Assembly (NCBI GenBank): GCA_000702025.1
Contig: JNKJ01000011.1
Location: 186,001-250,000, forward strand
Length of the DNA stretch: 64,000 nucleotides
Source of the DNA: Blautia schinkii DSM 10518
Lineage (GTDB): Bacteria; Bacillota; Clostridia; Lachnospirales; Lachnospiraceae
Reading direction: 5' to 3'
Positions 34,022 to 60,223 of the stretch are shown here, piece by piece. The notes below the pieces were generated by a model, which ran no database searches, was not told the DNA's origin, and saw only the letters and a program-made list of their open reading frames with translations. A program made the position numbers and the translations under genes. Each line of letters opens with the position of its first letter. Positions within the stretch are counted from its first letter, which is position 1.

Positions 34022-34168
34022 ATTCATTCCTCATAAATCGTTTTTTCGAGAAATATATCTTATCTTTCTCTATGCTCACCTACTCAGAAACTCTGCATCT
34101 TGATATAAGGTAACTCAACTTATATTTTGTATAAATCAATATCTCATATAGCAAATGCATATATTTTA

Positions 34169-35083
34169 TCATAAAAAGGTGCTTATAACCCCCCCCCCCA
34201 CACACACAGGGCTATTTATAATTTCTGTTCGAATCTTCTCTTTATACTTCTTCTTTTCATACTTCGTTCCTTTTTCCAGTAAAACTATATATATATTTAT
34301 AAGAACTTCACATCGCACTTTTTCTATATCTTTGCAATGCCATGGGCATATTGTTTTTATACCATTTTTAATATACTCAAGCCCTTTTAAATAATCAAAA
34401 TACTCTACTTTAAATTTAATACTTGATGTAACAGAATTAGCTCTCCTAAGATAATTATAGCCATACTCTGTTATCAAACATACTTTAAAATCATTTTTAA
34501 TTATATCTATCATAAAACACGTGTCTTCACAGATTGCTAGCTTTTGAAATGTACGTCCTGCTATGATACAGGTCTTAAACATTTTCCCCCATACAACACG
34601 AGTATACATTTTCCCCTCAAAGTAATGATTGAGCAGCAATTCTTTATCATGTATTTCCACTGCTTCTTGAATACTATTAAGACTATTAATTTCTTTTCCT
34701 TTTTCATCCACTTCTTTTGCATTACATGCAATCCAATCAGCCTTATTTTTTAATAGTTCTTCCAATAATTTTTCACAAAATTCAGGTTCAATCCAATCGT
34801 CACTGTCTACAAAAGTTATGTACTCTCCCTGTGCCTCATTAATCCCATTTTCACGAGCCTTCCCAACACCTGAATTTTTCTGATGTATTATTTTAATCCT
34901 ACTATCTCTTTTAGAATATTCATCGCATATTTTCCCGCAACTATCCGGTGATTGATCATCCACCAAAATAATTTCAATATTTTTATAAGTTTGATTAATC
35001 ACACTATCTATGCACTTTCTTAAGTAAGCTTCAACATTATATATTGGTATTATTACACTTATTAATTTATTCATATCCTCCAT
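34169..35083 (-). CDS. Family-2 glycosyltransferase with a phase-variable C-terminus
   Basis: Start ATG 35083 (GAGG about 9 nt upstream) gives 304 residues: MEDMNKLISVIIPIYNVEAY, then the GT-A core with DDQSPDS, FVDSDDWIEPEF (DXD) and EDTCFMIDII. In the present sequence the end is SPVCVGGGVISTFL because of an 11-G tract (34189-34199). With 12 (or 9) G the frame would run on for about 35 codons to a TAG at 34080, adding YKHLFMIKYMHLLYEIL and a basic, Tyr-rich tail typical of membrane-bound GT2 ends. With 10 G it stops almost at once. So three protein forms are possible. Confidence 0.85.
   Translation of the reverse strand: MEDMNKLISVIIPIYNVEAYLRKCIDSVINQTYKNIEIILVDDQSPDSCGKICDEYSKRDSRIKIIHQKNSGVGKARENGINEAQGEYITFVDSDDWIEPEFCEKLLEELLKNKADWIACNAKEVDEKGKEINSLNSIQEAVEIHDKELLLNHYFEGKMYTRVVWGKMFKTCIIAGRTFQKLAICEDTCFMIDIIKNDFKVCLITEYGYNYLRRANSVTSSIKFKVEYFDYLKGLEYIKNGIKTICPWHCKDIEKVRCEVLINIYIVLLEKGTKYEKKKYKEKIRTEIINSPVCVGGGVISTFL
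34189..34199 (-). repeat. 11-G homopolymer in the GT2 gene (coding strand), next to a GT dinucleotide run
   Basis: Plus strand shows C11 flanked by ACACACACA; on the coding strand it is TGTGTGTGT then G11. Both sequence types are prone to strand slippage. Each one-base change moves the reading frame at the C-terminus. Confidence 0.85.
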
Positions 35084-35179
35084 ATAATTAATCCTCACAA
35101 TTATCCTCTTTACTACTAACACATTCTCATTTATTCAAAAACAATTTATCCTTGTATACTACTCCTTTTCTATTCTAAA

Positions 35180-36088
35180 TTATATACACATTATTACCGC
35201 AAATATCTTAAACTTCATCGAAATATTTTTTGATTTCACAAAATCCCCTATATATCTTCGAGTAATATTTTTCATATTTTTTATTTGTATTTCATTGTTA
35301 TATTTGCTTTTTTTAATTTCATACAAACTATATACTGTTGCACACATCAATCTTTCTATCGCAAGACTACTGAGATCTGGATATCTTATACAAACGTCTT
35401 CTACAATTTGTTTCCACATTGGAATTGCTGAATATTTTTTGTCGTTAAATGTCTGGTGTGATATGCTATTTGCGTTCAAAACATGATGATACAACACTTC
35501 GTCAGTTACAATCATCTTTTTCGATTTTTGTAATATTTTCCACAAAAACTCTGCATCTTCTCCATATCCAGTTTTCTCATTAAAAAAGATTCGTTCTGAC
35601 AAATCACGTCTAATCAATTTATTCCACAACATACCTGTCATCCGTTGATGCTTCATAAATTCTAATTGTTGTTGCTTTCTATCCCAGACTTCATTTTTTG
35701 AACATATTCTCTTTATAACTTCATCAGGTGACTCCGCATGATCAGAATTACAAAAAACAATATCGGTATCTTCGTCTACCAGCGAAATCATTTTTTGAAT
35801 CATATCCTTTTCTATCCAATCGTCTGCATCCACAAATAGGAAATACTCTCCCTTACAGTATTCCAAACCAGTATTTCTTGCTGCTGCAACTCCTTTATTT
35901 CGTTGACTAACCAGACAAACTCTACTATCTCTATATCTATATTTTTCCAATATTTGATATGTTTTATCTGTTGATCCATCATTAACCAAAATAACTTCTA
36001 TATCTTTATATGTCTGATTTATAATACTGTCAACACATCTACTTATCACATTAGCTGCATTATATACTGGCACAATAACCGAAACCAT
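35180..36088 (-). CDS. Family-2 glycosyltransferase
   Basis: 302 residues beginning directly MVSVIVPVYNAANVISRC. GT-A landmarks: NDGSTDKT, RNKGVAAARNTGLEYCKGEYF, FVDADDWIEKDM (DXD) and GYGEDAEFLWKIL. The start has only a weak purine-rich site and lies 3 nt from the IS110 relic, so the natural upstream end of this operon part was probably lost to the insertion. Same family as the gene at 34.2 kb. Confidence 0.88.
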   Translation of the reverse strand: MVSVIVPVYNAANVISRCVDSIINQTYKDIEVILVNDGSTDKTYQILEKYRYRDSRVCLVSQRNKGVAAARNTGLEYCKGEYFLFVDADDWIEKDMIQKMISLVDEDTDIVFCNSDHAESPDEVIKRICSKNEVWDRKQQQLEFMKHQRMTGMLWNKLIRRDLSERIFFNEKTGYGEDAEFLWKILQKSKKMIVTDEVLYHHVLNANSISHQTFNDKKYSAIPMWKQIVEDVCIRYPDLSSLAIERLMCATVYSLYEIKKSKYNNEIQIKNMKNITRRYIGDFVKSKNISMKFKIFAVIMCI

Positions 36089-36229
36089 CTTTATCTTTTA
36101 TGATGTTTATAGAAGCAAAAACAACATATTCCTTTCGTTTTTCTTAATCTGTGGTTTAAGACATTCACATACTGTGGACTATTGATTTTTTCTGTAGCTT
36201 GTCTGCTCAACAGGAGTGTATTACCGCTA

Positions 36230-37340
36230 CCTTTATCTGAATGTTTTATCAGCTGGATGTTTCCGCAGTGTTTCACTCTGAGTACATATTTCAATCAAGT
36301 CTACGATAACCTGCTTCATTCCTTCGCTGGGATTTCTTCGGAGGGCGTGATATTCATCAAGCTGTTCACATTCACAGATGACTATGATGACTTCTATATG
36401 CTGTTTTATAAACTGGCACCACTTGACCAGAACAGCATCATCATAGGTCTTGAATCAACGGCGCACTACGGTGACAACCTTGTTCGTTTTTAATAAACAT
36501 GGATTTTAAAGTCTGTATTTTTAACCCGATCAAGACTTCTGTTAAGCGTAAGAATAATGTAAGCAAAACTTATAAATTCGACACGTTTTTTATAGCTAAC
36601 CACCTTATGATGCAGGATTCCTTAAGGTTTCTAATCTTAAGGGAGCTGAATTACACCGAACTTAAGGAGCTTGGAAGATTTTGTAAGTAAACGGCAAAGC
36701 AACATACCCATTTAAATTACAGCTGACTTCTTACATTAATCAGGTCTTCCCGCAAGCTCCTGTACTTCTATAAAACCCGGTATATATCAGAATTCTGACC
36801 ATGTACTCCTTTAGAGACACCGATACCGATTTATATTGCTTCCATGCATATGACTCATCTCGCTCAACTTTTCCATACGGCTTCCACGGTCATTTTGATA
36901 AAAACACTGCCAGAAAATTAAGAATTCTTAAACAAAAATCGGTCGGTATCAATGACAATTCCTTATCCATTCAAATAACTCATACCTTTGAACAGATTGA
37001 GTTATTAAATAAGCAGTTATTCCATACAGGGCTTGAAATGGCAAACCATGTCACATGCCTCCTCTCTGTGATCATGAGCGTCCCGGGCATTAGGTCTATC
37101 AATGGCGGAATGATACTTGGTGAGATTGACGATACTCACCGCTCCTCTACACCGGATAAATTATCTGCATTTGTTAGGTTGGATCCAACTGTTTATCAGT
37201 CCGAAAATTTTCAGGTTAAGAGAACCCGCATGTTCAAACACAACTCATGTGTAGTGCGTTATGCCCTTATAAATGTAACGCATAATATTCTAAAGAGCTA
37301 TGCGAATTTCAAGCATTATTACGATATCAACAGAGCGTAA
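36230..37340 (+). pseudogene. Broken IS110-family transposase
   Basis: Three successive open pieces on the plus strand match one IS110 protein. The N-terminal DEDD part is FTFTDDYDDFYMLFYKLAPL and IIIGLESTAHYGDNLVRF. A second piece has VCIFNPIKTSVKRK. The third has [19 protein letters not shown] and the Transposase_20 block [18 protein letters not shown], then [17 protein letters not shown]. Stops and frameshifts separate them, so it is dead. It divides the GT2/Wzx part from the acyltransferase/kinase part of the locus. Confidence 0.85.
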
Positions 37341-37551
37341 TGCCATACTCATTACAATACCTTTGGGCATTGTAATGGTATACTTGTCAGAGTCATCTGG
37401 TAGACGCTCACTGACGAAGTAGAATTTAGCCTTAAATAAGAGTTCTAAATACCTATATCGATAGATTTGAAAAAATGCACCCAACAAGTAGATTTATTAA
37501 AATTACCCTTTTAACATCGATAAGAAAAATGCATTTTTTACTAATTTATAC

Positions 37552-38573
37552 TTATCGTTTCACAGCTGGTCTCATTTTAGGAAACAAAGGCAACGCACGT
37601 AACCCATCCAAAATTTTTTGATAGATAAACGCACCCACCAAACTAAGTAAAACAAGCCAGACAAACATCAGCGGTGGCCATGAAACCAATTTCAATATCG
37701 GTTGGAACAAGTCACAAACATATGTTGAAAAGAATACTGCATGAAAGAACCACATTCCAGTCGAATATTTACCGAGGAAGCTTAGCAATGCAGAAATTGG
37801 TGCACAGTCCACCATTTCAAACAAGTTGACAATAAAACAAATCATGACCGGAACATAAAATACATCCAGTAAAAATCCCACAACTGAGTTGATAACTATG
37901 CGTATCGCAAATACAGCCATGATTCCAATCACGCACACAACTGGATTTCGCATCCATTTTATCCGCTTTGCTTTCTCAACTAACTGATTCTCCGCCATCC
38001 AGTATCCCACCAAAAAGCACGGAAAATACAGAAAGCAGCTAAACAAATCGTTTAAAAGCGTATTAGTTTGATAGTTTTGCACTGTATGCAGGACAATTTC
38101 AAAGATGTATGGCACAATCAACATTAATGCGAGATTAATTAGCGGTTTAAAGCGAAACACCTTATATCTGAAAAAAAGCGGCATTACCATCACACAAAAA
38201 ATATAGAAAAATACATACCAAGCAAACCAATTTAAATTAGGCAGCAATCCAAACATTTGAATAACCATTTGCCATGGAGCGATTTTCCACCCCCCCCCGC
38301 CATAGCTGCTGGAATGAAAAGAGTGAACAATGAAATCCAATAAATCTGAAGTAGCCTCCATATTTTCTTTAATCCGTATCTGACCGTTTTCTCTTTGGAA
38401 AAGAAATAACCATATCCAGAAAGCACAGCATAAATTGCAACGCATATCTTGCAAGCATATCCAAACAAAGTGACAAGATATGGCAATTCTGTGAATGGAA
38501 TGACAATGAAATGATGCATAATCATTATTATAATTGCTATACCCTTTATCATCTGTGTTGCATTCTTATTCAT
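37552..38573 (-). pseudogene. Acyltransferase-3 membrane protein, frame-shifted OFF at a G9 tract
   Basis: The start at 38573 (GGAGAAGAG upstream) gives a 113-residue stub: MNKNATQMIKGIAIIIMIMHH, FVIPFTELPY and IYAVLSGYGYFF match the acyltransferase-3 start. It runs into another frame after G9 (38298-38290). The remaining about 245 codons lie in the frame reached with 10 (or 7) G: GGGGWKIAPWQMVIQMFGLL, NLNWFAWYVFFYIF, LGKYSTGMWFFHAVFF. With one extra G the gene gives a continuous 340-residue, roughly ten-helix protein. It would O-acylate the glycan; the present state should be inactive. Better described as switched off than dead. Confidence 0.85.
38290..38298 (-). repeat. 9-G homopolymer in the acyltransferase gene
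   Basis: Coding strand ATGGC-G9-TGGAAA. G10 or G7 joins the two halves of the protein; G9 gives the premature stop after 113 codons. Confidence 0.85.
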
Positions 38574-38584
38574 ATCTCTTCTCC

Positions 38585-39139
38585 TCAGCTAAAACGATAT
38601 GTTCTGTAATAAAAAGCTCCGCTTCTCTCAGCAGCTTCTAGCCCAACATCTGAATCCTCAAATATAATTGTCTCTGACGGTGCTGAGCCAAAATATTGCA
38701 TTGCTTTCAAAAATCCCTCGGGATCTGGCTTAGATTTTGCGATATCATCATGTGTAAGAATCAAATCAAACAAACCAACAAGATTAAACTGACTCAATAT
38801 ATCAGAACAATTCTCTCTTGATGCAGTCGTCACAACAGCTGTTTTATATTCTAACTTCATCAATCTGATAATATCAACCAACCTGTTATTTAGAATTGCC
38901 TTATTAAGATGATTCTTGTAGGCATTTTTTTTAGCTTTGTGCATTGCAGTTAAAATTTCTTTATTATTTGTAGTAATCTGCGGCAAAAATTCTAAATAGT
39001 GACGCCCATTACAGAATTGACAGTAGTATTTATAATCAATATCATATCCATACGGTGTAATTGCATCTTTATAGGCATGATAATTTACATCCTTCGTATC
39101 AAATAATGTACCATCTAAATCGACAATAATAAGCTTCAT
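38585..39139 (-). CDS. HAD-superfamily phosphatase (beta-phosphoglucomutase/phosphoglycolate phosphatase-like)
   Basis: 184 residues. HAD motif I IVDLDGTLFDTKD, motif II VVTTAS, motif III Lys in SKPDPEGFLKAM, motif IV FEDSDVGLEAAERSG. A helical cap between motifs I and II places it in HAD subfamily IA. It lies in the block with two nucleotidyltransferases and an APH-type kinase and would remove a phosphate from the sugar or alcohol being activated. Confidence 0.87.
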   Translation of the reverse strand: MKLIIVDLDGTLFDTKDVNYHAYKDAITPYGYDIDYKYYCQFCNGRHYLEFLPQITTNNKEILTAMHKAKKNAYKNHLNKAILNNRLVDIIRLMKLEYKTAVVTTASRENCSDILSQFNLVGLFDLILTHDDIAKSKPDPEGFLKAMQYFGSAPSETIIFEDSDVGLEAAERSGAFYYRTYRFS

Positions 39140-39332
39140 ACTATACCTCTCATATCAACTTACTCAAAAAATTATTATTTTTCTTTGTAATAATTGCACC
39201 TACGCAATGGTTCTTGCTTTGCAATTAAATAACTTGATATTTCATAAAATCCAAATTTTCACAAAATAAATACAATCAAAAGATATCTAAAGCAAGCAAA
39301 AGATGTAATGTTTGAACAATATCTTACTGCTT

Positions 39333-40307
39333 TCATAATTCAACTACTTTCCTATCAAGTTCCGTATCTGAAGCAATGATTTCTTTCTTTTCAGAGTACG
39401 GACAACCGTATATTATCTTAATGAATCTCAGACCTACACGTTGCAACTCTTCCAATGCAGAAATCTTGTACTCTTCATTTTCAACTGTATATCCAATAAA
39501 GGAAGCCCCCCTATCTTGCAGCACAGCTAGTTTTTCCATATTCTGTTGAGTTAACATACCACTACTGTCAAGAATATTATCCAAGTCAATAAAGTACATC
39601 GTATAGTCCCTCTGCATATCTTTCCACAGGCGTTCATCTCCCCAATTCTCATATTCTATAGCAGAAACATAGTGAAATACTCGCCCAGAATAGCCTATCA
39701 AATAGGAAATCACATGACTAATATACAGTTTTGATACCGGATAACTTGCATCATTTAATTTCTCATATGCCTTTACAAAATCTTCTGCTTTTTTAAATCC
39801 ATATAAACCAAGGCAAATAACCTCTGATCGAACCTGCTTCTCGATAATATCTAGCAAAGTCTTTTGTTCATTCAGAATTAAAAAACTTTTATTTCTCAAA
39901 TTATGTATATCGCGTTCCCATGTGTTTAAGTCAAGTCCTGCCACGAAATTCCCCTGAGGAACATATTCTGTCTTAAGATAATTATCTGCATCCTTTACTA
40001 CAACGGCTCCTGTTACTCCACCCTTTCGAATTGCAAGATAAACCGTTTCTGCCGGTCCAGATGTCATTTTTTTTAGAGTAACTATCTCTATTGGAAACTT
40101 TTTGAATTCCTTATAAATAACCGAATCTGCATGATATTCATTCACGTCTTCTTCTGATAAAACAATTAAGACTCTATCATATACTTCCGTAAATACACCT
40201 TCAATACTACGTTCAATCAATAAGCTTCCCTTGGGATGTCGATATAAATATTGTGGTATCCCATTAACCATTTTTCTTCCCAAGCAAGGAACAATTAATG
40301 TACTCAT
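39333..40307 (-). CDS. Nucleotidyltransferase-like protein with C-terminal HAD-like segment
   Basis: Start ATG 40307 inside the TAATG junction with the upstream kinase gene, after GGGGAGG (324 residues). The first about 230 residues have a sugar-nucleotidyltransferase-like layout: MSTLIVPCLGRKMVNGIPQY at the start, MTSGPAETVYLAIR, and VVVKDADNYL in place of the usual DXD loop. From about residue 235 a short HAD-like part begins (MYFIDLDNILDSSG, later FIGYTVENEEY). I do not recognise a named family. Translational coupling to the kinase and the nearby second nucleotidyltransferase suggest joint activation of one substituent. The 39140-39332 gap shows nothing. Confidence 0.65.
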   Translation of the reverse strand: MSTLIVPCLGRKMVNGIPQYLYRHPKGSLLIERSIEGVFTEVYDRVLIVLSEEDVNEYHADSVIYKEFKKFPIEIVTLKKMTSGPAETVYLAIRKGGVTGAVVVKDADNYLKTEYVPQGNFVAGLDLNTWERDIHNLRNKSFLILNEQKTLLDIIEKQVRSEVICLGLYGFKKAEDFVKAYEKLNDASYPVSKLYISHVISYLIGYSGRVFHYVSAIEYENWGDERLWKDMQRDYTMYFIDLDNILDSSGMLTQQNMEKLAVLQDRGASFIGYTVENEEYKISALEELQRVGLRFIKIIYGCPYSEKKEIIASDTELDRKVVEL

Positions 40308-41182: not shown

Positions 41183-41218
41183 TTTCCTTCTCTCCCTAAA
41201 ATATTAAGCTTCAATCAT

Positions 41219-44122: not shown

Positions 44123-45341
44123 CTCTCAACCACTCCGCTTGTTTTTCCTCCAATTGTTTCAGCAGATTCTGTGCTACAACATCTCCATTGAAATTAGCTC
44201 TTACATAGTCGCAGCCAGTTTTAGCAATCTTCTCAAGTTCAACTTGATGCTCATCCATTTGATAATATTCAATAACACGTTTTAAATCTTCTTTTGTTCC
44301 GTCATAAATAATATAATGGACACCAGGAATCAAGCCCCAATCTCTGTAAGCAGGAATATCTAAGCCGATATATGCGCACCCACAAGCCATTCCTTCAACA
44401 AACCCAATGCCAGGAATTCCCAGAACTTCTTCACCAACAATACACATCTTGTAGCTGTTGAAAGCTTCAACCATATCGAATGAATAGTATTTTTCCTGCC
44501 TTCCAACATGAATCCGATTATAAACTTTTTTATATATCTTAACAGGAAAAAAATCTGTGTCATTCACTTTCTTTCCTTCATTATCTTCCAGATAATCACT
44601 GCTTGTGCAGTAAATTGTATTTTTAAAATACTCAGGATTATCTTTAATCTGCTTTCTGGTTGGCTGATTACAAGAGTCACCATAGGTATTTAAAAACTCA
44701 TTATGAACTTTATAAGTGATTGTTCCAGTAGCAAATGCCATATTCATTCTTTTATTAAAAGGAACTTTGTCTTGAAAACGTTTAGCATATACAAACGGAT
44801 GCGTTATCCAAGGCTTGTTCGTATGATAGTAACGGCGATATAGTTCGCAATTTGTTTCCAAATTCACCTCACCGAACAGGCAGTTCACATTAGCTTTGTT
44901 GATTTCATCACTTTCACCTTCTTTACCATGAAAATGAAGCATACTCAAAGCTTTAAAAGCATAGACACCATTCATCCCTCGATAATTATCTGAACAAACA
45001 TTATAGAGAATCACCAAATCATCCTGTTTAATTTCTGAAACACTTTTTAAAACTGTAATTTTATTCATATCAATACCATTGACCTTCATAGTCTTTCTAT
45101 TTTCAGCAAAACGAAAAAAATTCAATACCTTCATCAACGCATCATTATTATTTCTCAGCCACGAAAATCCTCTATCATTGATATAGTTACAAATTTCATA
45201 CTCAGGATGGTCTACCAAATAATTCATTATATATCCATGCTTTAATGCTAAAGAAAATTTAAATAGGTAAACCGAGGCAGTCTTAACCAACATCCAATCA
45301 GAATGCAAATTCACAAATACAATTCGTTTTCTTTCTCTCAT
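44109..45341 (-). CDS. GT-B type glycosyltransferase (family 4/1-like)
   Basis: 410 residues. The C-terminal nucleotide-binding half has EVLGIPGIGFVEGMACGCAY with the E(x7)E pattern and later IIYDGTKEDLKRVIEYYQ. The N-terminus (RKRIVFVNLHSDWMLVKTAS) is divergent. Its start overlaps the previous gene's stop by 4 nt (ATGA), a sign of tight coupling. Donor and acceptor unknown. Confidence 0.78.
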   Translation of the reverse strand: MRERKRIVFVNLHSDWMLVKTASVYLFKFSLALKHGYIMNYLVDHPEYEICNYINDRGFSWLRNNNDALMKVLNFFRFAENRKTMKVNGIDMNKITVLKSVSEIKQDDLVILYNVCSDNYRGMNGVYAFKALSMLHFHGKEGESDEINKANVNCLFGEVNLETNCELYRRYYHTNKPWITHPFVYAKRFQDKVPFNKRMNMAFATGTITYKVHNEFLNTYGDSCNQPTRKQIKDNPEYFKNTIYCTSSDYLEDNEGKKVNDTDFFPVKIYKKVYNRIHVGRQEKYYSFDMVEAFNSYKMCIVGEEVLGIPGIGFVEGMACGCAYIGLDIPAYRDWGLIPGVHYIIYDGTKEDLKRVIEYYQMDEHQVELEKIAKTGCDYVRANFNGDVVAQNLLKQLEEKQAEWLRDGKI

Positions 45342-46452
45342 GATTCAAACAAGTCCTCCATTTCCTGTACCATATGGTCTATACTATACTTTTCAAGCTT
45401 TATAGGATCAACTGTTAGCACTATTTTCTCATTCAAAACATCATTGAGTTTTTGCGCCCAAAAAGCGGCTGACTCTTCCAACGGAAGATATAGAGTGGAT
45501 CCACAATTTGCTTCCGCAGGTGTTGTTGTTGATGTAACACAGGGCAATCCCGCTGCTTGTGCTTCAATTAAAACAATTCCAAGACCTTCAAAGTTGCTCG
45601 GGAGAAAAAATACATCTACACAACGGAGAATTTCCGGAACATCTGATCTGGCACCCAGCATATGTATACGCTCAGCAATACCATAGGTATTAATTCTGTC
45701 AAATACCTGTTCTTCCATATCTCCGATTCCAATCCAAACAAAGTCGCAATCATCACGAATTTTGAATAATTCATTCATGACATCAACAATAAAAATTGGA
45801 TTTTTTTGAAATGTGATTCTTCCAATTGTACTGATATTATATTTTTTCCGAAGTCCCAACTTTTTTTCTTTTCATCAAAATTACAAGATCGCCGAAATTC
45901 CGAAAAATCGATACCATTATGAACTACTTTGGAATATTTATCACTTTTCCATTTTTGATGAAAAAGGAAATCCATTGCTATTTCGGAACATCCGCCTCTA
46001 CGATTGGAAAAATTCCAACACAACCATCTCATTAAGGTCTGGTACAATGTTACACACAGTTTCCTACCGACCTGAAGCTCTTTCTCTTGCTTGGAATTAT
46101 GAGAATGGCACTCACGGACTGGAACACCCGCCAACCAGGAGATAAATAGGTTTGGTCCATTAAATAAATCTATGTTTGTTTGAAAAATATCATACCTTTC
46201 TTTTCTTAACTCTTTATATAGCAATAATAGATGCCTTAATTTTTCCTTTATGTTTTTGAATGAACATGTCCATATAATGCGAACACCTGTAGTTTTCAAA
46301 TCATTTAGTTTCGGCCCTGGCTTTTTAGGGTCCATAGAAAGAACAACTGTCACACTATAGCCATCTTTCATTAATCCCTCGCACATATTTATCACAAATG
46401 TATCTGTTCCACCAAAACTTAAACTATTTTGCAATATACATACTTTTCTCAT
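45338..46452 (-). pseudogene. Family-4 glycosyltransferase split by a frameshift at an A7 tract
   Basis: Start ATG 46452 after AAAGGTGA. The N-terminal half (KVCILQNSLSFGGTDTFVIN, acceptor domain) ends in a wrong-frame tail at 45775. The C-terminal half in the -1 frame has ISTIGRITFQKNPIF, FVWIGIGDMEE and FLPSNFEGLGIVLIEAQAAG, the normal GT4 domain. The frames meet at AAGAAAAAAAG (A7, 45867-45861): one added A, or a -1 slip on AAA-AAA-AGT, joins them as KKKKLGLRKKYN. So it may be a mutant, a phase-variable gene, or a gene using slippage. About 370 residues when joined. Confidence 0.75.
45861..45867 (-). repeat. A7 slippery tract in the GT4 gene
   Basis: The coding strand has A7 followed by G, giving an A-AAA-AAG heptamer in the -1 register. 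This is the site where the two halves of the GT4 gene change frame. Confidence 0.6.
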
Positions 46453-46463
46453 AAAACTCACCT

Positions 46464-47537
46464 TTACCAAAACTTAAATTGATACGGCACGAACCCCATT
46501 CCACTTGAAGCAGTCGGACTTGCTATCAAAAAAATTACAACAACATATATAAAAATCAACAACTTAGCTATTTTTTTGCTATTATCATTAAATAGAAATA
46601 TACACTGTGGAATTAGAAATACTTGTACCATTAGAAAATACTCACCAATTCTCTTTGCAAACGCATTAGAAAATCCGAGATACTGACAAATTGCACCGAC
46701 CGCCATCATCATGATTAGCAAGTCATTTCTCTTATCGATAGCAATGAGTTCTGTTCTAAAAATAAAAAAAATAATAGTAATTAAAGAATAAAGCCAAAAT
46801 GTTCTATTTCTTCCTTCAACGGCATCAACGGCGTAAGTTTCATATCTGCCATTCATAACATTTCCTAATACCCATTGCAAATTCATGATAATAAATAGAC
46901 ACCCCACAACAATCAGCACTTTTTTGAGTGTACTTAAATCCCCTCCATCATTTATGAAAAAATATACTAATAAAAATACAATAGCCGTTGAATGAAATAA
47001 AAATGCTACTGCTACGAATAAAACAAATCTAATTGGTTTTCTTTCATAAACAAACTTCAACGAAAACATTAAAAAGCCTAATGCAATGCCCTGTTTGCAT
47101 GCAGAAAGAGAAAAAATAAATGGACTAAACATATAGATAAATATAATCATTTGCTGGATATCCACATCATTCCATTCTCTCAGTATATATGAAATACCAG
47201 GAATCAATGATAGAATCGCTAAAATCATCAGATATGCTCGTTCCGAGTTAAACACTGTTGCAATTTTAGTGATTAAATAGAATGCTATAGGATCCCCAGT
47301 TTCATATCCTGCAATAATAGACTCATACGTTATATCAAATGAATTATCATAATTCAAAACATAACTACCATAGTCATAACCAATATTATACCTAAATGTT
47401 GCTAAAAAAACAGGTGGGATAATGACTAAAAAGAGCTTAATAACATTGTTCTTTATATTCATCCTACATATCAGTCCTGAAAGACCAAAAGTCCCAACAT
47501 AAAATAGTATACTTCCTACAACAGACAATTGCCCCAT
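46464..47537 (-). CDS. wzy: Polysaccharide polymerase (Wzy, EpsG family)
   Basis: 357 residues with about 10-11 membrane helices. The EpsG signature FRYNIGYDYGSYVLNYD lies near residue 50, and the large extracytoplasmic loop and late KRIGEYFLMVQVFLIPQ fit. It polymerises flipped repeat units under control of the Wzz kinases. AAGGGAGG before the ATG. Confidence 0.85.
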   Translation of the reverse strand: MGQLSVVGSILFYVGTFGLSGLICRMNIKNNVIKLFLVIIPPVFLATFRYNIGYDYGSYVLNYDNSFDITYESIIAGYETGDPIAFYLITKIATVFNSERAYLMILAILSLIPGISYILREWNDVDIQQMIIFIYMFSPFIFSLSACKQGIALGFLMFSLKFVYERKPIRFVLFVAVAFLFHSTAIVFLLVYFFINDGGDLSTLKKVLIVVGCLFIIMNLQWVLGNVMNGRYETYAVDAVEGRNRTFWLYSLITIIFFIFRTELIAIDKRNDLLIMMMAVGAICQYLGFSNAFAKRIGEYFLMVQVFLIPQCIFLFNDNSKKIAKLLIFIYVVVIFLIASPTASSGMGFVPYQFKFW

Positions 47538-52371: not shown

Positions 52372-52400
52372 GTTACCACCCCACAATCATCTAACTTTTA

Positions 52401-53360: not shown

Positions 53361-54259
53361 ATAGAATAACCGCTTTCCTTATATTTATCATACAAAGCAT
53401 TGTAAATCTTTATAATTACCTCTTTATCCTCTGTTTCATCGAATTTTCTCGCAAATAAATAACGTGTATTAAAATTCTCTGTCAAATCTTTTAAATCATT
53501 TATCACAAAAGTATATGGTGAATTCGCTTTTCTTCGGGTCCAATCTATATATCTTAAATTTCCCCAAGGCTGCTCTTTTTCATATACATTAAATTTGTAA
53601 GGAGAGGCTGCTACTTCAGTCTGTATCCACACTTCGTCCCCTCCTAAGGTATAACGATACATTTTCTTAATTTCCCTCTCTCTCTCTAATAGATACTCCA
53701 TAAATTCTTTAGTAATCGAAAAATAAGCCGAACCGTGATACAGGTCTTTACGCTTTCGATTTATTACTATTACCTTTTGCAACCTAACAAAAGAATGATT
53801 TAACACCTTTAACAAATAATTATTTCGGTACCATTGATTTTCCACAAAGAGATGCCAGTAGTTACATTTGTAATATGCAAAATCATAATTTATCTTTTCA
53901 AACTCTATAAATTCATAGCCTTTATGTTCTTCAAAAAATTCTTCTATAACATATCTGCTCATCATCGGCACGTCCGAGCCGGTTAAAAAGTGAATATAAT
54001 CTGGTTTAAACTTCTGTGCCTGTCGCATCATTTGCAATGTTGCAGAAACCTGTGTCCCCCCTCCCCAATTAATTTTTAGTTCAAGATATACGGTTTGTTT
54101 TCCTGCTATATTCAATATGCTATCTTGTAATTGATAATTGTTTGCTCTTTTATCTATTCCCAGTACAAAGTAGTGATTCTCTGCCACCAAACTATGTACT
54201 AACTTTTTAAGCTGCCAAAAATTATTATGAAACATAATCATAAAAACGTGTTTCATCAT
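53357..54259 (-). CDS. Core-2/I-branching-type N-acetylglucosaminyltransferase (GT14-like)
   Basis: 300 residues from ATG 54259, which overlaps the sugar-transferase stop (ATGA). The family pattern is clear: HVFMIMFHNNFWQLKKLVHS, HYFVLGIDKRAN, LELKINWGGGTQVSATLQMM, FLTGSDVPMMS and YHGSAYFSITKEFMEYLL, then GGDEVWIQTEVA. Probably adds a branching sugar to the repeat unit. Runs of C on the plus strand near 54056 are only six long. Confidence 0.85.
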   Translation of the reverse strand: MMKHVFMIMFHNNFWQLKKLVHSLVAENHYFVLGIDKRANNYQLQDSILNIAGKQTVYLELKINWGGGTQVSATLQMMRQAQKFKPDYIHFLTGSDVPMMSRYVIEEFFEEHKGYEFIEFEKINYDFAYYKCNYWHLFVENQWYRNNYLLKVLNHSFVRLQKVIVINRKRKDLYHGSAYFSITKEFMEYLLEREREIKKMYRYTLGGDEVWIQTEVAASPYKFNVYEKEQPWGNLRYIDWTRRKANSPYTFVINDLKDLTENFNTRYLFARKFDETEDKEVIIKIYNALYDKYKESGYSI

Positions 54260-54918
54260 TTCTCTCTTTCTCTCATGCAATTTCCTTTGAACTCATCCAT
54301 CGTAACAGACGTCAAGGAACTGATACCCTCGCGCTTTAACACAGTTCCAACAGTTTGAAAAATAATTAACCAATCCCACCAGAATGAAATATTGTCTACA
54401 TAGCAGATATCCATTTCAAACCTTTTATCCCAAGATAATGTATTTCTCCCGTGAACTTGAGCATATCCAGTAATCCCTGGACGAACCTCATGTCTTCTAA
54501 ATTGATGAACATTATATCTGGACAAATATTTAACCAAAAGCGGTCTTGGTCCAACCACCGCCATATCACCTTTCAGTATATTGAAAAGCTCAGGCAACTC
54601 ATCGAGAGATGTACTACGTAATTTCTTGCCAAACCTCGTCAAACGAACTTCATCTGGCAACAACTCTCCATCTTTATTTTTCTCTTCTGACATACTCCTA
54701 AATTTATAGAGTGTAAATATTTCCCCATTCTTTCCCGGACGCTGTTGTTTAAAAATCACAGGTGCCCCTATCTTAATACGGACAAGGATTGCTATGACCA
54801 ACATAACCGGGGTAAGAACAATCAGTGCAAATAATGAGCAACAAAAATCTTGAGGGCGCTTTATGTATTTTTCATAAAATCCCTGTTCATGAGATATTGA
54901 ATTTTCTTTTCGCTTCAT
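54256..54918 (-). CDS. Priming undecaprenyl-phosphate sugar phosphotransferase (PglC/WcaJ-type, short form)
   Basis: Start ATG 54918 after AGGAG (220 residues). One N-terminal re-entrant membrane helix (FCCSLFALIVLTPVMLVIA) and the core GAPVIFKQQRPGKNGEIFTL, YKFRSM, RSTSLDELPELFNILKGDM and VVGPRPLL. This short, PglC-like form transfers a phospho-sugar, often a diamino-trideoxy sugar, to the lipid carrier, starting each repeat unit. Consistent with the dehydratase and aminotransferase nearby. Confidence 0.93.
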   Translation of the reverse strand: MKRKENSISHEQGFYEKYIKRPQDFCCSLFALIVLTPVMLVIAILVRIKIGAPVIFKQQRPGKNGEIFTLYKFRSMSEEKNKDGELLPDEVRLTRFGKKLRSTSLDELPELFNILKGDMAVVGPRPLLVKYLSRYNVHQFRRHEVRPGITGYAQVHGRNTLSWDKRFEMDICYVDNISFWWDWLIIFQTVGTVLKREGISSLTSVTMDEFKGNCMREREK

Positions 54919-54946
54919 AACACACTCCTGCTCAAGATAGAAAATT

Positions 54947-56212
54947 TTATATAAAACAGCCTCTGACAATCCCAATAATCTTATCCTGCTGCTCCTGAGT
55001 CATTTTATTGTCGCTTGGAAGGCACAACCCCCTATGGAAAATATCTCTCCCCACATCCAACTGCAATCCGCATTCTTCATTAGCTTCAGTTTCTAAGGAA
55101 GTAATCGATGTCCCTCTGGCATTGCCTTGTCTTGTTACAAACTCATTATTTCTATAAATTGGCTGCATATGCATCGGTTTCCAAATAGGACGCCCTTCTA
55201 CATTATATTTCAACAATGTTTCTAAAATTTCTGTAGGACAAGACTTACCAGCTTCGGAAACATATGAAACATCACATTCTTCTCTAACCTGTTTGCACAT
55301 TGCATCCGAATTAACGATAAGGCAAGACAGCCAAAAATTCGGCATGGAATTTTCTACATCATAAGGATTCATATGTACCGGCAAATCTTCCAAACCTTTC
55401 TTATACCTTTCATATATAGCTTTCTTCTGCGCAATATGTTCATCCAAATATGGAATCTGACCTCTTATGACCCCTGCAATTAAATTGCTCATACGATAGT
55501 TATAGCCAATCTCTGCATGTTGATACCATGGTGCATTTTCTTTTGCCTGGGTAGACCATTTGCGGACCTTATCTGCAGCCCATGAATCATTTGTCAATAG
55601 AAATCCACCTGAAGAACCAGTGATAATCTTATTTCCATTACAAGATAAACACCCAATCTTTCCGAATGAGCCTGTCTGAATCCCTTTGTAACTGGCCCCC
55701 AGACTTTCTGTGGCATCCTCAATAAGCAAGGCGCCGTGTTTATCACAGATTGCTTTTATTTCATCAATTTTTCCCGGTGTACCGTACAGATGTGCAATAA
55801 CAACTACTTTCACATCCGGGTAAAGCTCAAATGCTTTCTCCAATGCTACAGGATCCATATTCCATGTGTCATACTCTGTATCAATAAAAACCGGGACACC
55901 ACCTTCATATACAACAGGATTAACAGTAGCATCAAACGTCATATCGGAACAAAATACTTTGTCCCCCGGCTTTACTCCTGCAAGCTTTACTGCAAGATGT
56001 ATCGATGCCGTTCCTGCCGACAGAGCCACTGCATATTCTACCCCTATTTTTTTCGCAATCATTCTTTCAACTTCATCTATGTTTTCGCCAACTGTAGACA
56101 TCCAATTTGTTTCATATGCCTCTGTAATATACTTCAATTCTTCTCCATGCATCGTTGGAGATGAGAGCCATATTTTCTTCTCAAACGGTTTGAACATTTC
56201 TGTATCTTTCAT
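54947..56212 (-). CDS. DegT/DnrJ/EryC1 aminotransferase (PglE/PseC-like)
   Basis: 421 residues. PLP-binding pattern: ALSAGTASIHLAVKLAG, VIAHLYGTPGKIDEI, LIEDATESLGASYKG and the lysine in LSCNGNKIITGSSGGF. It aminates a 4-keto sugar nucleotide. With the 4,6-dehydratase at 61.6 kb it would make a UDP-4-amino-4,6-dideoxy-HexNAc, the bacillosamine route; the acetylation step could come from one of the acyltransferases. Confidence 0.92.
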   Translation of the reverse strand: MKDTEMFKPFEKKIWLSSPTMHGEELKYITEAYETNWMSTVGENIDEVERMIAKKIGVEYAVALSAGTASIHLAVKLAGVKPGDKVFCSDMTFDATVNPVVYEGGVPVFIDTEYDTWNMDPVALEKAFELYPDVKVVVIAHLYGTPGKIDEIKAICDKHGALLIEDATESLGASYKGIQTGSFGKIGCLSCNGNKIITGSSGGFLLTNDSWAADKVRKWSTQAKENAPWYQHAEIGYNYRMSNLIAGVIRGQIPYLDEHIAQKKAIYERYKKGLEDLPVHMNPYDVENSMPNFWLSCLIVNSDAMCKQVREECDVSYVSEAGKSCPTEILETLLKYNVEGRPIWKPMHMQPIYRNNEFVTRQGNARGTSITSLETEANEECGLQLDVGRDIFHRGLCLPSDNKMTQEQQDKIIGIVRGCFI

Positions 56213-56245
56213 CCTGTATATACTTCCTAATAATTATTTATAAAC

Positions 56246-57385
56246 TCACACCTTCTCATAAAATATTTCCAGTATCAATTCATACATTCTTTCCTCATCC
56301 ACCAAATATTTCATATATAACTCCGACTCTTCAGTCTTCCCCGGTACGCTTTGTATAAAATCATCATTAAATCTATACGATACCACCTGACTTGCCAAAT
56401 AAGAAAACTCATCCATCGCCACATCTGTCACCATATACGGCATAATTTCCTGATATAATGATACCGGCAGCGTAATATTTTCCTTAACCGCCCCAATAGC
56501 CTGACTTGCAAAAGCCAAAATATACTGCTGCTGCCTGGCCATTCTGGATTCATTGGTTCCTTCACCAACTCCCATTCGGCTTCGCACATATGTTTCAGAA
56601 AAATCCCCTAAAAGGTGAACCTTTGTCCCCTGTACATATGATTGATCCACTCTGGTAAAGTCATCTAAAAGACTAACATAAACCCCACCCACCATATCAT
56701 TCACAATTGGAATTGCACTAGTATTAAGTGCAAAGTATCCATGAATCGGTAATCCATAAAAAAGATGTGAGACTGCATCTCTGGTCAATTCAGCACTTTT
56801 CTTTGCACCGTCACCAAAGGCATAAGACAGTGCTATCTGCTCCGTCTGTTTCCCGGTAAACTGCCCATCTAAATCATAAATAGAAATCTCCGTCATGGTA
56901 TCCCTGTTCACCGGGATCAGTGTAACCATTTTTCTTTTATTATCCATTGCCGCCAGAAAGATGGTATCCGCCTGCCCGGCATCTTTGCCTGTTCCCTTAT
57001 TCTCAGCTTCACCATTCCCAACTTCACCTGAAGTATCCACACCAATAAACAGCAGATTAATCATCTCCTCATTATAGCGGTATTTCACTCCTTTATATTT
57101 TAAGGTATTCTCATCCAATATCTCCGTCTTAATATCCGCAGAATCCGTTTTTACCGGTTTCAACTCCGGCCTGGACACTCTGCCCTTTTGTTCAATCTTA
57201 TTTTTTCCGGAAGAAATCAAGTACCCGCCAACGCCGAACATCCCAACGACCAATATCAGAAAGACTGTCAGGATACGCATCCATATCTTTCTCTTCTTTT
57301 TTCTGCGATGGGACTTTCTTTTTATGTAGGCAATACCTTTCCCTTCATCCTCCCGCACCTTCTCTATATCAAAATTAGTTTCCAA
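56246..57385 (-). CDS. LytR-CpsA-Psr (LCP) ligase
   Basis: 379 residues; TTG start at 57385 with GGAG at normal spacing. Cytosolic basic start (HRRKKKRKIWMRILTVFLIL), one membrane helix, then the LCP domain with INLLFIGVDTSG, RDTMTEISIYDLDG, VDQSYVQGTKVHLLG and SRMGVGEGTNESRMARQQQ. LCP proteins move finished polymers from the lipid carrier to the cell wall. It follows the sortase stop by a few bases. Confidence 0.92.
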   Translation of the reverse strand: METNFDIEKVREDEGKGIAYIKRKSHRRKKKRKIWMRILTVFLILVVGMFGVGGYLISSGKNKIEQKGRVSRPELKPVKTDSADIKTEILDENTLKYKGVKYRYNEEMINLLFIGVDTSGEVGNGEAENKGTGKDAGQADTIFLAAMDNKRKMVTLIPVNRDTMTEISIYDLDGQFTGKQTEQIALSYAFGDGAKKSAELTRDAVSHLFYGLPIHGYFALNTSAIPIVNDMVGGVYVSLLDDFTRVDQSYVQGTKVHLLGDFSETYVRSRMGVGEGTNESRMARQQQYILAFASQAIGAVKENITLPVSLYQEIMPYMVTDVAMDEFSYLASQVVSYRFNDDFIQSVPGKTEESELYMKYLVDEERMYELILEIFYEKV

Positions 57386-57389
57386 AACA

Positions 57390-58250
57390 TTACTCCACTT
57401 CTTTTAATACACCCTGGACCAGATACCGCGAGGATGGTGCGTTTCCTATACATGTTGACAGTGTTATGATACAATCTTTTGATGTAACCTTTATTTTATC
57501 ACGGATATAAGCATCCATGGTCCGGACTGCATAAATCTCCTCCAGATATGTCTGAACCACCTCTTCATTTTCGAAATCATATGTATTTAAAATATGGCGG
57601 TCATCGTAAGTATAGGCGGCAAAAATATCATAATGGTATATATGCTCCGGCGTATAAATAATAACCTCCCGGTTTTTATCGAAAAAATCTCTATCCTTAA
57701 AAGAGTGCAAGCCTGCAAACATACTTCCGTCTTTCATATTGTGCCCATACAAAACTGTATTGAAGTCTGTAAAATCTTTGTTGTTTTTTCTCTCCGTATA
57801 GATGGCTCCGGCGTACAAATATTCTCTGTCTATTCCGCGATGCATGTAAAAGCTGTCATCTGATTCGCTTTGCACTACAGGATAATCTATTTGCGTCCCG
57901 GGAACCGTAATCCAGGCATAAATCTCTTCGTTCTTTTCTTTCAAAGCATCAAAATCCACAGGTATCGTCACCGGAACAGCCGTTGGAGCTGGGCTTACTG
58001 TTGGTGTTGGTGCTGCTGTCTCTTTCGGCGTTACACTCAGCTTCGGCGTTGCGCTTAACTTGGGTGAGTCACCTGAATCAGGTGTAGAACCTGGCTCTTT
58101 TTCTGGCTCTTTTGCATTTCTTCTCGCCTCATCATAAGCTTCTTGCCCTTGCTGCTGGCTGTTTCTATATTGAATCGCATATCCCAATGCCGCCAGACTG
58201 CCAATCAAAGCCAAAATGCAGACAATCGACCATATCTTTTTACTCTTCAT
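57390..58250 (-). CDS. Class B sortase
   Basis: 286 residues: N-terminal membrane anchor, a Pro/Thr-rich stalk (TPKLSVTPKETAAPTPT, two repeats) and the SrtB-type catalytic domain with His170 (VLYGHNMKDGSMF), Cys267 (ITLSTCIGN) and Arg275 (SSRYLVQG). It likely anchors surface proteins such as the SPKTG protein at 26.3-26.9 kb. It sits between the signal-peptidase-like gene and LCP, so it may also act on the neighbouring peptide, which has no obvious sorting signal. Confidence 0.93.
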   Translation of the reverse strand: MKSKKIWSIVCILALIGSLAALGYAIQYRNSQQQGQEAYDEARRNAKEPEKEPGSTPDSGDSPKLSATPKLSVTPKETAAPTPTVSPAPTAVPVTIPVDFDALKEKNEEIYAWITVPGTQIDYPVVQSESDDSFYMHRGIDREYLYAGAIYTERKNNKDFTDFNTVLYGHNMKDGSMFAGLHSFKDRDFFDKNREVIIYTPEHIYHYDIFAAYTYDDRHILNTYDFENEEVVQTYLEEIYAVRTMDAYIRDKIKVTSKDCIITLSTCIGNAPSSRYLVQGVLKEVE

Positions 58251-58288
58251 ACCTCTCCCCCGGAAGCACTAAAATGTATCCTTTTGGC

Positions 58289-58708
58289 TCATTTTCCCTT
58301 TATGTACCGGTAAATCCTCCAGCAGGCTTTACGAAGAGGAAAAATAAACCACCATATTTTTGTATAGCATTGGTATCTCCAATCAGAAACCGGCACGTAA
58401 GAATCCTTACGATAAAAGCCGGACATCACGCCCAAAATCTGTTCCCTGCAGATTCCGGGTTCAAAGCTATATGTATTATCTCCACAGGCAACAAACGTAT
58501 TATCCCGCACATTAATAAGCCTATGCAGGACCAATTTTCCAGCCTTACCACGATATAAGACTACATCGAATTTCTTCAATAAACCTTGAGGCTTTACCAG
58601 CAGCACCTGGCACTTATCGCCTTTAAGCAACGGCCTCATACTGCCTCCAAGCGGTGCAGCTAAAACTTCTCCATGCTCGGACAGGTACTCTCCGATATCC
58701 CTATACAA
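58289..58708 (-). CDS. S26/S24-like peptidase with a Ser-His arrangement
   Basis: Best start TTG 58708, with GGAAGGAG about 9 nt upstream (139 residues, 8-nt overlap with the PqqD gene); a longer form from 58780 is possible. Ser23 lies in PLGGSMRPLLKGDK. The box after it is KFDVVLYRGKAGKLVLHRL with His62 where bacterial type I peptidases have Lys, as in SipW/ER-type signal peptidases. GDNTYSFEPGI closes the fold. No N-terminal membrane helix; a C-terminal WWFIFPLRKACWRIYRY could bind the membrane. Likely processes the small peptide of this cassette. Confidence 0.78.
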   Translation of the reverse strand: MYRDIGEYLSEHGEVLAAPLGGSMRPLLKGDKCQVLLVKPQGLLKKFDVVLYRGKAGKLVLHRLINVRDNTFVACGDNTYSFEPGICREQILGVMSGFYRKDSYVPVSDWRYQCYTKIWWFIFPLRKACWRIYRYIKGK

Positions 58709-58964
58709 GAATTTCCGCTCCTTCCAGTTTATCGAGAAATTCTCTGACATCAATATCAGCCGCATCCTGCCCGATATCATATTCGGAACAAAGGCAGATG
58801 ATTAATTCTTCTGCGGTTTTATCTGTCTTAAGACATTCCCACAGAAATCTGCCGGTCTCATTCATGCGGACAAGGCCGTTAAATTCTTTCCGCGCTTCTC
58901 CCATGGCAACTGCCACATATTCAGTTCCCAGCTTTCTCAACACGAAACCATCCTTTATCCTCAT
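58701..58964 (-). CDS. PqqD-family protein (peptide-binding, RRE-like)
   Basis: 87 residues: start KDGFVLRKLGTEYVAVAMGE, the middle FNGLVRMNETGRFLWECL and the end VREFLDKLEGAEIL, all typical of PqqD. In RiPP pathways PqqD folds bind a leader peptide and present it to a modifying enzyme. Here no radical-SAM gene is near; the neighbours are a kinase-like and a nucleotidyltransferase-like gene plus a small peptide gene. GGAGG 7 nt before the ATG. Confidence 0.9.
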   Translation of the reverse strand: MRIKDGFVLRKLGTEYVAVAMGEARKEFNGLVRMNETGRFLWECLKTDKTAEELIICLCSEYDIGQDAADIDVREFLDKLEGAEILV

Positions 58965-58985
58965 TAATCAAACCTCCGGGATATG

Positions 58986-59699
58986 TTAATCTTTGCTCTG
59001 CAATGCTAACCGAGCAACTCTCGCCGCATCCTGTGAAGCATTACATGACAAAATATAAAACGAAACTTTTTTCATCATCAAATCTATCAAATCCAATTCT
59101 ATCTGCAGCAAGTCATCACTCACTGGAATCAAGACCTGCGAAAACAGTCTTTCTAAAGTTTCCTTTGGCTCCGCCTCTCGGATATGATTATCGGTCTCGC
59201 GTTCCAGAAAACAAATAGCTTTTAGAGGCACACTTTTATTAACTCCCCAGCCCTCTTTACCGCACCAGGGAGTACCATAGGCAATGAACTCCTCTTTCTC
59301 CTTATCAAAAGATAGTAACGGTTTATCTCCGTTAATAATCTCCACCTTATCACCAAATGCCTGCCTCCACAAAACAACATGCGTTGACTTCCCGGTTCCA
59401 CTTCGGGCTGCAAAGGCGAAGCCTTCTCTTTCGCAGGATATGACTGCCGCATGTACCACCATGCTCCTATGATAGAGCATTTCAAGACAGATTTTACGAT
59501 ATATGATATTGCTCTCACAGTAACCAAAGGAAAAGCCGGATAATAACTCATGCTCTAGCAGAAGTTCTTTTTCTGTATAAGATATCTCCATCTCAAAAGG
59601 CAGCTTGTCCGCCACACGAAAATCATCACAAAGCCATTTAACGTAATCATACAAATTATGTATTCGTATAATAATACCAGCCAGTTTTATTTGAAACAT
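58986..59699 (-). CDS. HPr-kinase/PEPCK-like kinase
   Basis: 237 residues. The P-loop is FAARSGTGKSTHVVLW (about 95-110), followed by IINGDKPLLSFDKEKEEF and GTPWCGKEGWG, the pattern of HprK-like proteins found with PqqD and nucleotidyltransferase genes. Relatives phosphorylate serines; in some lasso-peptide clusters such a kinase modifies the peptide. An action on the small peptide (59.9-60.2 kb) is inference. AGAGG before the ATG. Confidence 0.85.
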   Translation of the reverse strand: MFQIKLAGIIIRIHNLYDYVKWLCDDFRVADKLPFEMEISYTEKELLLEHELLSGFSFGYCESNIIYRKICLEMLYHRSMVVHAAVISCEREGFAFAARSGTGKSTHVVLWRQAFGDKVEIINGDKPLLSFDKEKEEFIAYGTPWCGKEGWGVNKSVPLKAICFLERETDNHIREAEPKETLERLFSQVLIPVSDDLLQIELDLIDLMMKKVSFYILSCNASQDAARVARLALQSKD

Positions 59700-59792
59700 A
59701 ACTACCTCTTTTATAATAACTATAAATCATTCCACCATATCGCGAGCAGGAGCAGACCCTTACTCAAGAACAACATCTGCCTCTGAAACGGC

Positions 59793-59932
59793 CTAAGGTT
59801 CTGAAACGGGTTCAGGAGTAGAACCGTCTTGGGGGAGCTCATCATTTGTCGGAGAGTCTGATTGTGTCGGAGAGTCTGGTTGTATCGGCGAATCTGGCTG
59901 TACTGGAGGTTCTGGTTGTACTGGAGGATTTA
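59793..59932 (-). other. Downstream in-frame extension of the small peptide reached by +1 G
   Basis: This stretch is outside the peptide gene as it now reads but is open in the frame made by 13 G. It encodes repeated Pro-x-Gln-Pro-type segments and ends at TAG 59793, close to the HprK start at 59699. Its Pro/Asp/Ser bias equals that of the first half of the gene, strong evidence that it is a real coding part. Confidence 0.75.
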
Positions 59933-60223
59933 CTAGTGGACTCTCTGGCTCTGGTGCCTCGTCCGGACTTTCATTATTACCCTCTTCACTCCCCCCCCCC
60001 CCTTTTCATTAGATCCTGTATCATCTGCTCCCGTGGACACAGTCGGTTCAGATGTCGTTCCATCAACAGTCTGTGGCTCGTTAGGAGGTGTTGGCTCATT
60101 CTTCGGTTCCTCTCCTTCATCTTTGTCTATTCCATCATCCGATGCAGCAGTAGTACTCTCCATCAAAATATCAACCTTCCCAAACTCAATAATATCCACT
60201 TCCGGTTTCACATATTTTCTCAT
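59933..60223 (-). CDS. Small acidic Pro/Ser/Thr-rich peptide, candidate modified peptide, phase-variable end
   Basis: Start ATG 60223, GAGGG 6 nt upstream (96 residues in this state). The N-terminus MRKYVKPEVDIIEFGKVDIL resembles short leader-like peptides of gut Clostridia. The middle is acidic and Pro/Thr/Ser-rich with no membrane helix. After residue 76 (AAG in AAG-G12) the current frame gives a basic, unrelated tail to TAG 59933. With 13 (or 10) G the frame continues for 65 more codons with the same composition (ESPDEAPEPESPLV, PPVQPEPPVQPDSPIQPDSP and so on) to TAG 59793, so that state is the likely natural long form (143 residues). With 11 G it ends within a few codons. Confidence 0.75.
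   Translation of the reverse strand: MRKYVKPEVDIIEFGKVDILMESTTAASDDGIDKDEGEEPKNEPTPPNEPQTVDGTTSEPTVSTGADDTGSNEKGGGGVKRVIMKVRTRHQSQRVH
59991..60002 (-). repeat. 12-G homopolymer in the small-peptide gene
   Basis: Coding strand GAAAA-G12-AGTGAAGAG. The longest G-run in the window; frame changes at this site alter everything after residue 76. Confidence 0.88.

Follow-up and report, generated by a model that had tools for sequence, protein, structure and literature searches.

Do the long runs of G that break the reading frames of three genes in one polysaccharide locus of Blautia schinkii DSM 10518 act as switches of the cell surface? The locus lies in the window analysed here, a stretch of 64,000 nucleotides (contig JNKJ01000011.1, positions 186,001 to 250,000), for which a first reading made from the sequence alone had proposed slipped-strand phase variation. 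This proposal is supported, most of its sequence predictions that could be tested having come out as expected, and we now consider it very probable, on sequence evidence, that the tracts belong to a multi-locus poly-G phasome. The support comes from a two-humped distribution of tract lengths, a strand bias that puts the G on the coding side, read-through of the tract site in relatives of two of the three genes, an even spread of reading registers, -10 boxes directly past intergenic tracts, and one length difference between orthologous tracts.

Three G-tracts at frame borders

On the coding (minus) strand, the window carries runs of 11, 9 and 12 G (C on the plus strand), exactly where the sequence-only reading had placed them; a run scan of the 64 kb also confirmed that these are its only G/C runs of at least 8. 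Each tract separates two frames, the entering open reading frame (ORF) stopping shortly past the tract and a further open stretch lying in another frame:

34189..34199, minus strand: G11 tract near the 3' end of a family 2 glycosyltransferase (GT2) gene (run scan, frames)
34169..35122, minus strand: GT2 ORF as assembled, 317 amino acids, ending soon past the tract (Pfam PF00535, 7.9e-43; relatives extend further)
34080..34211, minus strand: open stretch in another frame, 39 amino acids from the tract on, like the C-terminal tails of relatives P0122-P0126 and P0129
38290..38298, minus strand: G9 tract inside an acyltransferase gene (run scan, frames)
38232..38573, minus strand: N-terminal part of the acyltransferase, an ORF of 113 amino acids stopping past the tract (87% identical to residues 1-95 of relative P0004)
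37552..38454, minus strand: C-terminal part of the acyltransferase, in the other frame (Pfam PF01757, 1.9e-9; 73% identical to residues 84-328 of P0004)
59991..60002, minus strand: G12 tract inside a gene for a small proline/acid-rich peptide (run scan, frames)
59933..60244, minus strand: peptide ORF as assembled, 103 amino acids, no Pfam family (ORF list, frames, Pfam)
59793..60005, minus strand: other-frame open stretch of the same peptide gene, 69 amino acids, rich in Pro, Ser and Glu (frames)

The frame check upheld the earlier arithmetic, by which one more G joins the two frames in all three genes. For two of the three, the acyltransferase and the GT2, the joined form has support from relatives. 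The 'eight surface states' first proposed are a correct count for three switches in the window and too low a figure for the genome, which has 33 runs of at least 8. A first-order Markov model of the window, run in 100 simulations, yields per 64 kb a mean of 0.37 runs for a length of exactly 8, 0.07 for lengths of 9-10 and 0.00 for 11-12. The excess, three tracts against 0.31 expected, is a post hoc figure, as the window had been chosen for its tracts.

Relatives of the interrupted genes

Is the other frame a functional part of the same protein? A search of 5.8 billion proteins returned 145 relatives of the acyltransferase, the best 120 of which were analysed, and we counted the tract site as read through when at least 90 residues stand ahead of the motif FGL(L/Y)PNLNWFAW. 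This was so in 72 of the 120, with GG at the joint in 66 of those 72. Fourteen others begin at or after the tract site, 6 are intermediate, and 28 are without the exact motif. The start of one relative, P0031, looks by eye like the same off frame as in the window. The short relatives are what one would see if the gene were off in those strains; cut contigs or misplaced starts would give the same picture. A scan of genome contigs yielded one relative, in Pseudoflavonifractor sp. An44 (site L069), which bears GGAGGATGG and no tract. In a class-wide draw of 391 genomes (E 1e-40), the acyltransferase was found in its own genome and in one other, G297, where the coordinates of the match are those of the An44 locus.

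In the GT2, the tail encoded in the other frame aligns with the tails of P0122-P0126 (58-73% identical) and P0129 (45%). For each of these six relatives, a set that does not include the closest match, P0121, none of 1000 shuffles reached the score of the alignment.

Tract lengths and placement across the genome

The genome of the window (6.68 Mb in 65 contigs, 98.3% complete) has 33 runs of at least 8: one of 8, ten of 9, seven of 10, nine of 11, four of 12 and two of 13. Together with 22 runs of exactly 7, this makes a two-humped distribution (22 of G7, one of G8, 32 of G9-13). Geometric decay from the G7 class predicts about 1-2 runs of at least 9, against the 32 observed. The Markov rates of the window, scaled to the genome by hand, give about 39 runs of exactly 8 and about 7 of at least 9, hence a milder excess and a strong deficit of 8. 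Long mononucleotide tracts beyond chance, the mark of contingency loci, are present in this genome. Of the tracts at the 30 loci of this genome examined, 21 overlap a stop-to-stop stretch of at least 150 codons, and 20 of these 21 have their G on the coding strand.

Where do these tracts lie? In our reading of several results, which is not the output of a single test, 17 of the 33 lie within ORFs or at their ends, 3 are promoter spacers set against a -10 box, 2 stand just before start codons and 11 fall into no class. Tracts are found where a change of length would shift a reading frame or a promoter spacing. Surface-glycan genes are the biggest group of targets. The ORF tracts occur in glycosyltransferases (sites L034, L037, L045, L055), acyl- and hexapeptide transferases (L038, L046, L054), an epimerase (L051), an FdtA-family protein (L056), a thiamine pyrophosphate (TPP) enzyme (L052) and a GDSL-like protein (L053) in a second polysaccharide locus, C20. 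Further ones are in an amidohydrolase (L040), a transposase-like ORF (L050), the peptide of the window (L047) and a protein with a signal-peptide-like start (L044). A GHKL sensor kinase (L032) is cut at a G11 ahead of its ATPase domain, whereas four relatives, of 493-494 amino acids, include that domain: P0242-P0244, at 60-63% identity, and P0245, whose gene is on the same contig.

A D12-class DNA adenine methyltransferase (L043) has a G9 (1502-1510) close to its start, which also separates two frames, at what we take to be the S-adenosylmethionine-binding motif of the enzyme. It is possible that this tract is a phase-variable methylation switch. Among the tracts with neither an assigned gene nor a promoter, L041, L042 and L066 lie in G-rich DNA that, by eye, shares a motif like CGAGGGGGCAATCTCAGAGTTGC; Tandem Repeats Finder, run on L041, found nothing.

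At three gene-end tracts (L034, L051, L052), the ORF stops soon past the tract, and the stop codon of one other frame touches the next start codon (TAAATG, ATGA and ATGA). No such overlap with the next gene was seen at L040. The neighbours across these three tracts are homologous: 32% identity for the two TPP enzymes and 24% for the two glycosyltransferases, with a weak relationship for the epimerase pair (17%, E 8e-4). At L037 and L056, the tract likewise separates two homologous units, two glycosyltransferase units (GT/GT domain, 43%) and two FdtA units (38%). To judge from these arrangements, the gene-end tracts may act as choosers between related enzymes, which we treat as a lead, for adjacent homologues are common in polysaccharide loci anyway.

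Promoter-like and 5' tracts

A -10 box lies directly past the tract at L033, L049 and L065. In the first two, a -35 and a -10 box enclose the G-tract at near-optimal spacing (TTGCCG, 18 nucleotides, TATAAT at L033; TTGATT, 18 nucleotides, TAAAAT at L049), and at L065 the -10 box is present with a weak -35.

Is this placement more frequent than expected? We counted promoter motifs in this genome, its congeners and other members of the family, using 32 of the 33 own sites (the G8 is under the cut), 71 from congeners and 36 from the other family members; sites at contig ends or adjacent to N were dropped. Eighty-one of the sites have no upstream ORF of 40 codons. Against a control of short G-runs at like positions, unmatched for base composition, TAxxxT follows the tract directly in 21 of these 81 sites versus 55 of 1991 runs, and a match to TATAAT at 5 or more of the 6 positions is found in 18 of 81 versus 22 of 1991. 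Where an upstream ORF is present, TAxxxT occurs in 4 of 58 sites (p 0.08). Eleven of the 25 sites with TAxxxT have a -35 scoring at least 5, each taken as the best of nine spacings, and the spacer is 18 to 20 in 10 of those 11.

The tracts just before a start codon belong to a response regulator (L036) and to a pilin-like protein with an N-methylation motif (PF07963; L059). In two species, a strong RNA hairpin is predicted ahead of the pilin start, with the G-tract as its 3' arm (L059, 1455-1555, z -3.5; L080, 1202-1302, z -3.7). In such a structure, the length of the pilin tract may tune translation.

Congeners and other family genomes

In a survey of 200 family genomes, one per genus, 67 have a run of at least 10, and our genome (22 such runs) is second to G060 (28). 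Within the genus, such a run is present in 37 of the 64 genomes (our own among them), and the next highest count after our own is 9, in G236. Since such runs are confined to these subsets of the family and the genus, the trait is not general.

The congener G236 provides two orthologous tracts. The 5' tract of the pilin gene has G11 here (L059) and G10 there (L080). The tract of the protein with a signal-peptide-like start (L044 here, L083 there), in a region 80.7% identical over 2.5 kb, is G10 after a C here and G11 there, with a flanking substitution and the register unchanged. Three further pairings by blastn (L065/L106, L064/L077, L036/L107) were rejected, the tract not being common to the pair by eye.

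We fetched the sites of 74 of 83 congener runs of at least 10, which cannot all be taken as independent, given the likeness of L072, L089 and L190, and of 20 of 21 runs in G146, 10 of 28 in G060, 10 of 14 in G196, 10 of 10 in G084 and 6 of 8 in G119. The Pfam search covered 20 pieces, which represent 18 loci out of 39 listed. Congener tract genes encode Acyl_transf_3 (L165, L179), GT2 (L173, L184), Branch, the Core-2 branching enzyme (L099), Hexapep (L103) and Wzy (L193); others encode kinases (L086, L170) and beta-helix proteins (L081, L164). In G060, tract genes encode surface-type repeats (L134) and a radical SAM protein (L158). Four pieces gave no Pfam family (L166, the second of L173, L139 and L087).

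G060, a 3.1-Mb genome of another genus, has TTGACA and a -10 box around the tract in 2 of its 10 fetched sites (L131, L140). G146 (68% complete; L110-L129) has 21 runs of at least 10, lying mid-gene; 18 of the 23 runs of at least 9 in its fetched stretches are of exactly 10, and 13 of 20 are in frame. We suspect another cause for these runs, possibly an artefact, and for this reason its 22 sites were set apart from the promoter count and its control.

The polysaccharide locus

The tracts of the window stand in a minus-strand locus that encodes GT2 and GT4 glycosyltransferases, a pyruvyl transferase, an EpsG-family protein, a Core-2 branching enzyme, a DegT aminotransferase, a LytR-CpsA-Psr protein, presumably one that attaches the polysaccharide to the wall, and a polysaccharide-biosynthesis dehydratase. 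Its further features include:

31417..32970, minus strand: flippase-like gene holding a G7 (32650-32656; PF01943, E 7.4e-4, under the curated cut-off)
33008..34027, minus strand: polysaccharide pyruvyl transferase, the gene next downstream of the GT2, holding a G7 (33410-33416; PF04230, 1.1e-36)
46464..47537, minus strand: EpsG-family protein (PF14897, 1.4e-43)
56246..57385, minus strand: LytR-CpsA-Psr protein (PF03816, 6.4e-18)
61561..63465, minus strand: polysaccharide-biosynthesis dehydratase/epimerase (PF02719, 1.4e-122)

The two G7 runs, in adjacent genes, are among the 22 exact G7 of the genome and are perhaps young tracts; with a third at C20:65505, three of the 22 lie in two polysaccharide loci. 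When a 20-kb piece of the C20 polysaccharide locus was searched against the genus, 50 of the 64 genomes (our own among them) gave a match; outside our own genome, the long matches among those listed are 64-77% identical, and we draw no inference on tract length from them.

Probable phase variation and its alternatives

In a phase-variable system of this type, replication slippage would add G residues to the tracts or remove them, as at contingency loci. The second half of the acyltransferase and of the peptide gene would move into or out of frame, the GT2 would have its C-terminal tail swapped, and elsewhere in the genome the distance between the -35 and -10 boxes would be altered. With surface-glycan genes as the largest target group, a clonal population would hold mixed glycan forms. 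We infer slippage within populations, its reversibility, its effect on the polysaccharide and a selective cause (phage or immunity).

A number of observations speak against phase variation. Eleven of the 33 tracts have no assigned gene or promoter. Congener tracts are also found in a GerA germination protein (L094) and a PAS protein (L109), with no evident role in surface glycans. No length variation was seen inside a strain or species, in genome sets that hold one genome per species. The acyltransferase had no match in the 63 other congeners at E 1e-30 and, with so few related loci found, there is no nucleotide-level series of its tract, which could not be followed in the genus. The genome retains MutS- and MutL-family genes whose frames are open, so that slippage is not explained by lost mismatch repair, a cause that we had considered. 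Finally, the three tracts of the window are all in the same off register, and the L044/L083 tract is in the same register in both species.

Could the shared register of the window tracts be a product of sequencing? A systematic one-base assembly error would yield it: the tracts would be real, with one base mis-called and the genes constitutively in frame, and one-base miscalls of homopolymers are common. The sequence-only reading had itself named correction of the tracts to one consistent frame as an outcome that would refute phase variation. The genome as a whole does not show a single register: by our hand count (on which the chi-square was computed) and our own reading of several results, the 16 tracts with a defined partner frame divide into 4 in frame and 6 and 6 in the other two registers, which resembles a random draw and argues against one-sided shortening by assembly. 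Moreover, miscalling cannot make runs of 9-13 G where a relative has GGAGGATGG, nor can it set tracts against -10 boxes, and we regard this explanation as quite improbable.

The register shared by L044 and L083 would fit productive transcriptional slippage, in which RNA polymerase slips on the same type of tract and a gene fixed out of frame still gives some full-length protein. The phenomenon appears in the reference list of an article on bifidobacterial pili (PMC9187656). Such slippage leaves the promoter-spacer tracts and the in-frame tracts unexplained and is unlikely as the explanation; it can coexist with phase variation, so that the odds of the two overlap.

A third possibility is that the interrupted genes are pseudogenes, frames decaying in a variable polysaccharide locus with G-runs as hot spots of loss. 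A GT4 glycosyltransferase of the window (45338-46470, minus strand) consists of two overlapping ORFs with a break near A7, A6 and A7 (45801-45867), and no G-tract is involved; decay therefore does seem to happen in this locus. As an account of the G-tracts, decay is highly improbable, given tracts long beyond chance, 4 of 16 in frame, and others in promoters.

Phase variation being the preferred explanation, we would tentatively go one step further: this Clostridia genus might possess a large poly-G phasome working at three levels (promoter spacing, frame and gene ends), with tracts at the borders of tandem homologous sugar enzymes whose length decides whether the second enzyme is made. The result would be a combinatorial surface chemistry rather than a plain on/off switch.

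Comparison with known systems

The mechanism is of a known kind; what is new to us is its occurrence in this lineage, with so many tracts and such a mixture of classes. Our literature search, of partial coverage and hence weak evidence of novelty, found no earlier report of poly-G or homopolymeric phase variation in Clostridia. In the parts covered, slipped-strand mispairing comes up in an article on Clostridioides difficile, but for rRNA spacers only (PMC3902958), the groups sampled in a survey of homopolymeric tracts from 2010 include Clostridia (PMC2831843), and a 2025 review of gut surface polysaccharides mentions phase variation for Bacteroides only (PMC12413058). If phase variation is confirmed, a single reference genome of such bacteria is one random draw of surface states, and frame-broken glycan genes in such assemblies should not be dismissed as pseudogenes. 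With dozens of poly-G tracts in one Clostridia genome and smaller sets in congeners, the group would be open to direct testing, if the organism is a commensal.

Campylobacter jejuni NCTC11168 has 29 poly-G/C loci with tracts of at least 7 (PMC4965091). Our genome resembles this phasome in its tens of poly-G tracts and their arrangement in reading frames; the cut-offs differ, with 55 runs of at least 7 and 32 of at least 9 here. It differs in being a 6.7-Mb Clostridia genome, in having a promoter-spacer class too and in that its switching is so far a prediction from sequence. In Neisseria gonorrhoeae, repeats cause transcriptional, translational and C-terminal phase variation, and where a tract lies at the 3' end, one of its frames can join a gene to the one that follows (PMC5320596). 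All three arrangements occur here, in promoter spacers (L033, L049), mid-gene and at 3' ends (L034, L051, L052), in another lineage and in other genes; the stop codon touching the next start at three 3'-end tracts and the homology of the neighbours are differences from the gonococcus. The porA promoter of Neisseria meningitidis has a poly-G between -35 and -10 (PMC7864442), and here too a G-tract fills this spacer. In our predicted promoters, however, the tract abuts the -10 box, and the spacers are mostly 18-20 where a -35 is recognisable.

In Bifidobacterium breve, another Gram-positive bacterium, a G-tract switches sortase pili in one or two pilus clusters (PMC9187656), and a G-tract lies between the signal sequence and the remainder of a surface protein, an arrangement that our L044 shares. 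About thirty tracts are found here, in contrast, many in glycan genes. The bifidobacterial tract is in the first gene of a sortase-dependent pilus cluster, whereas our L059 tract precedes the start codon of a PF07963 pilin-like gene, for which no sortase search was made. Phase variation in Clostridia is known from invertible promoters of C. difficile (PMC11868660), which our system would resemble in outcome and lineage; there it proceeds by site-specific inversion, here it would proceed by simple-sequence repeats.

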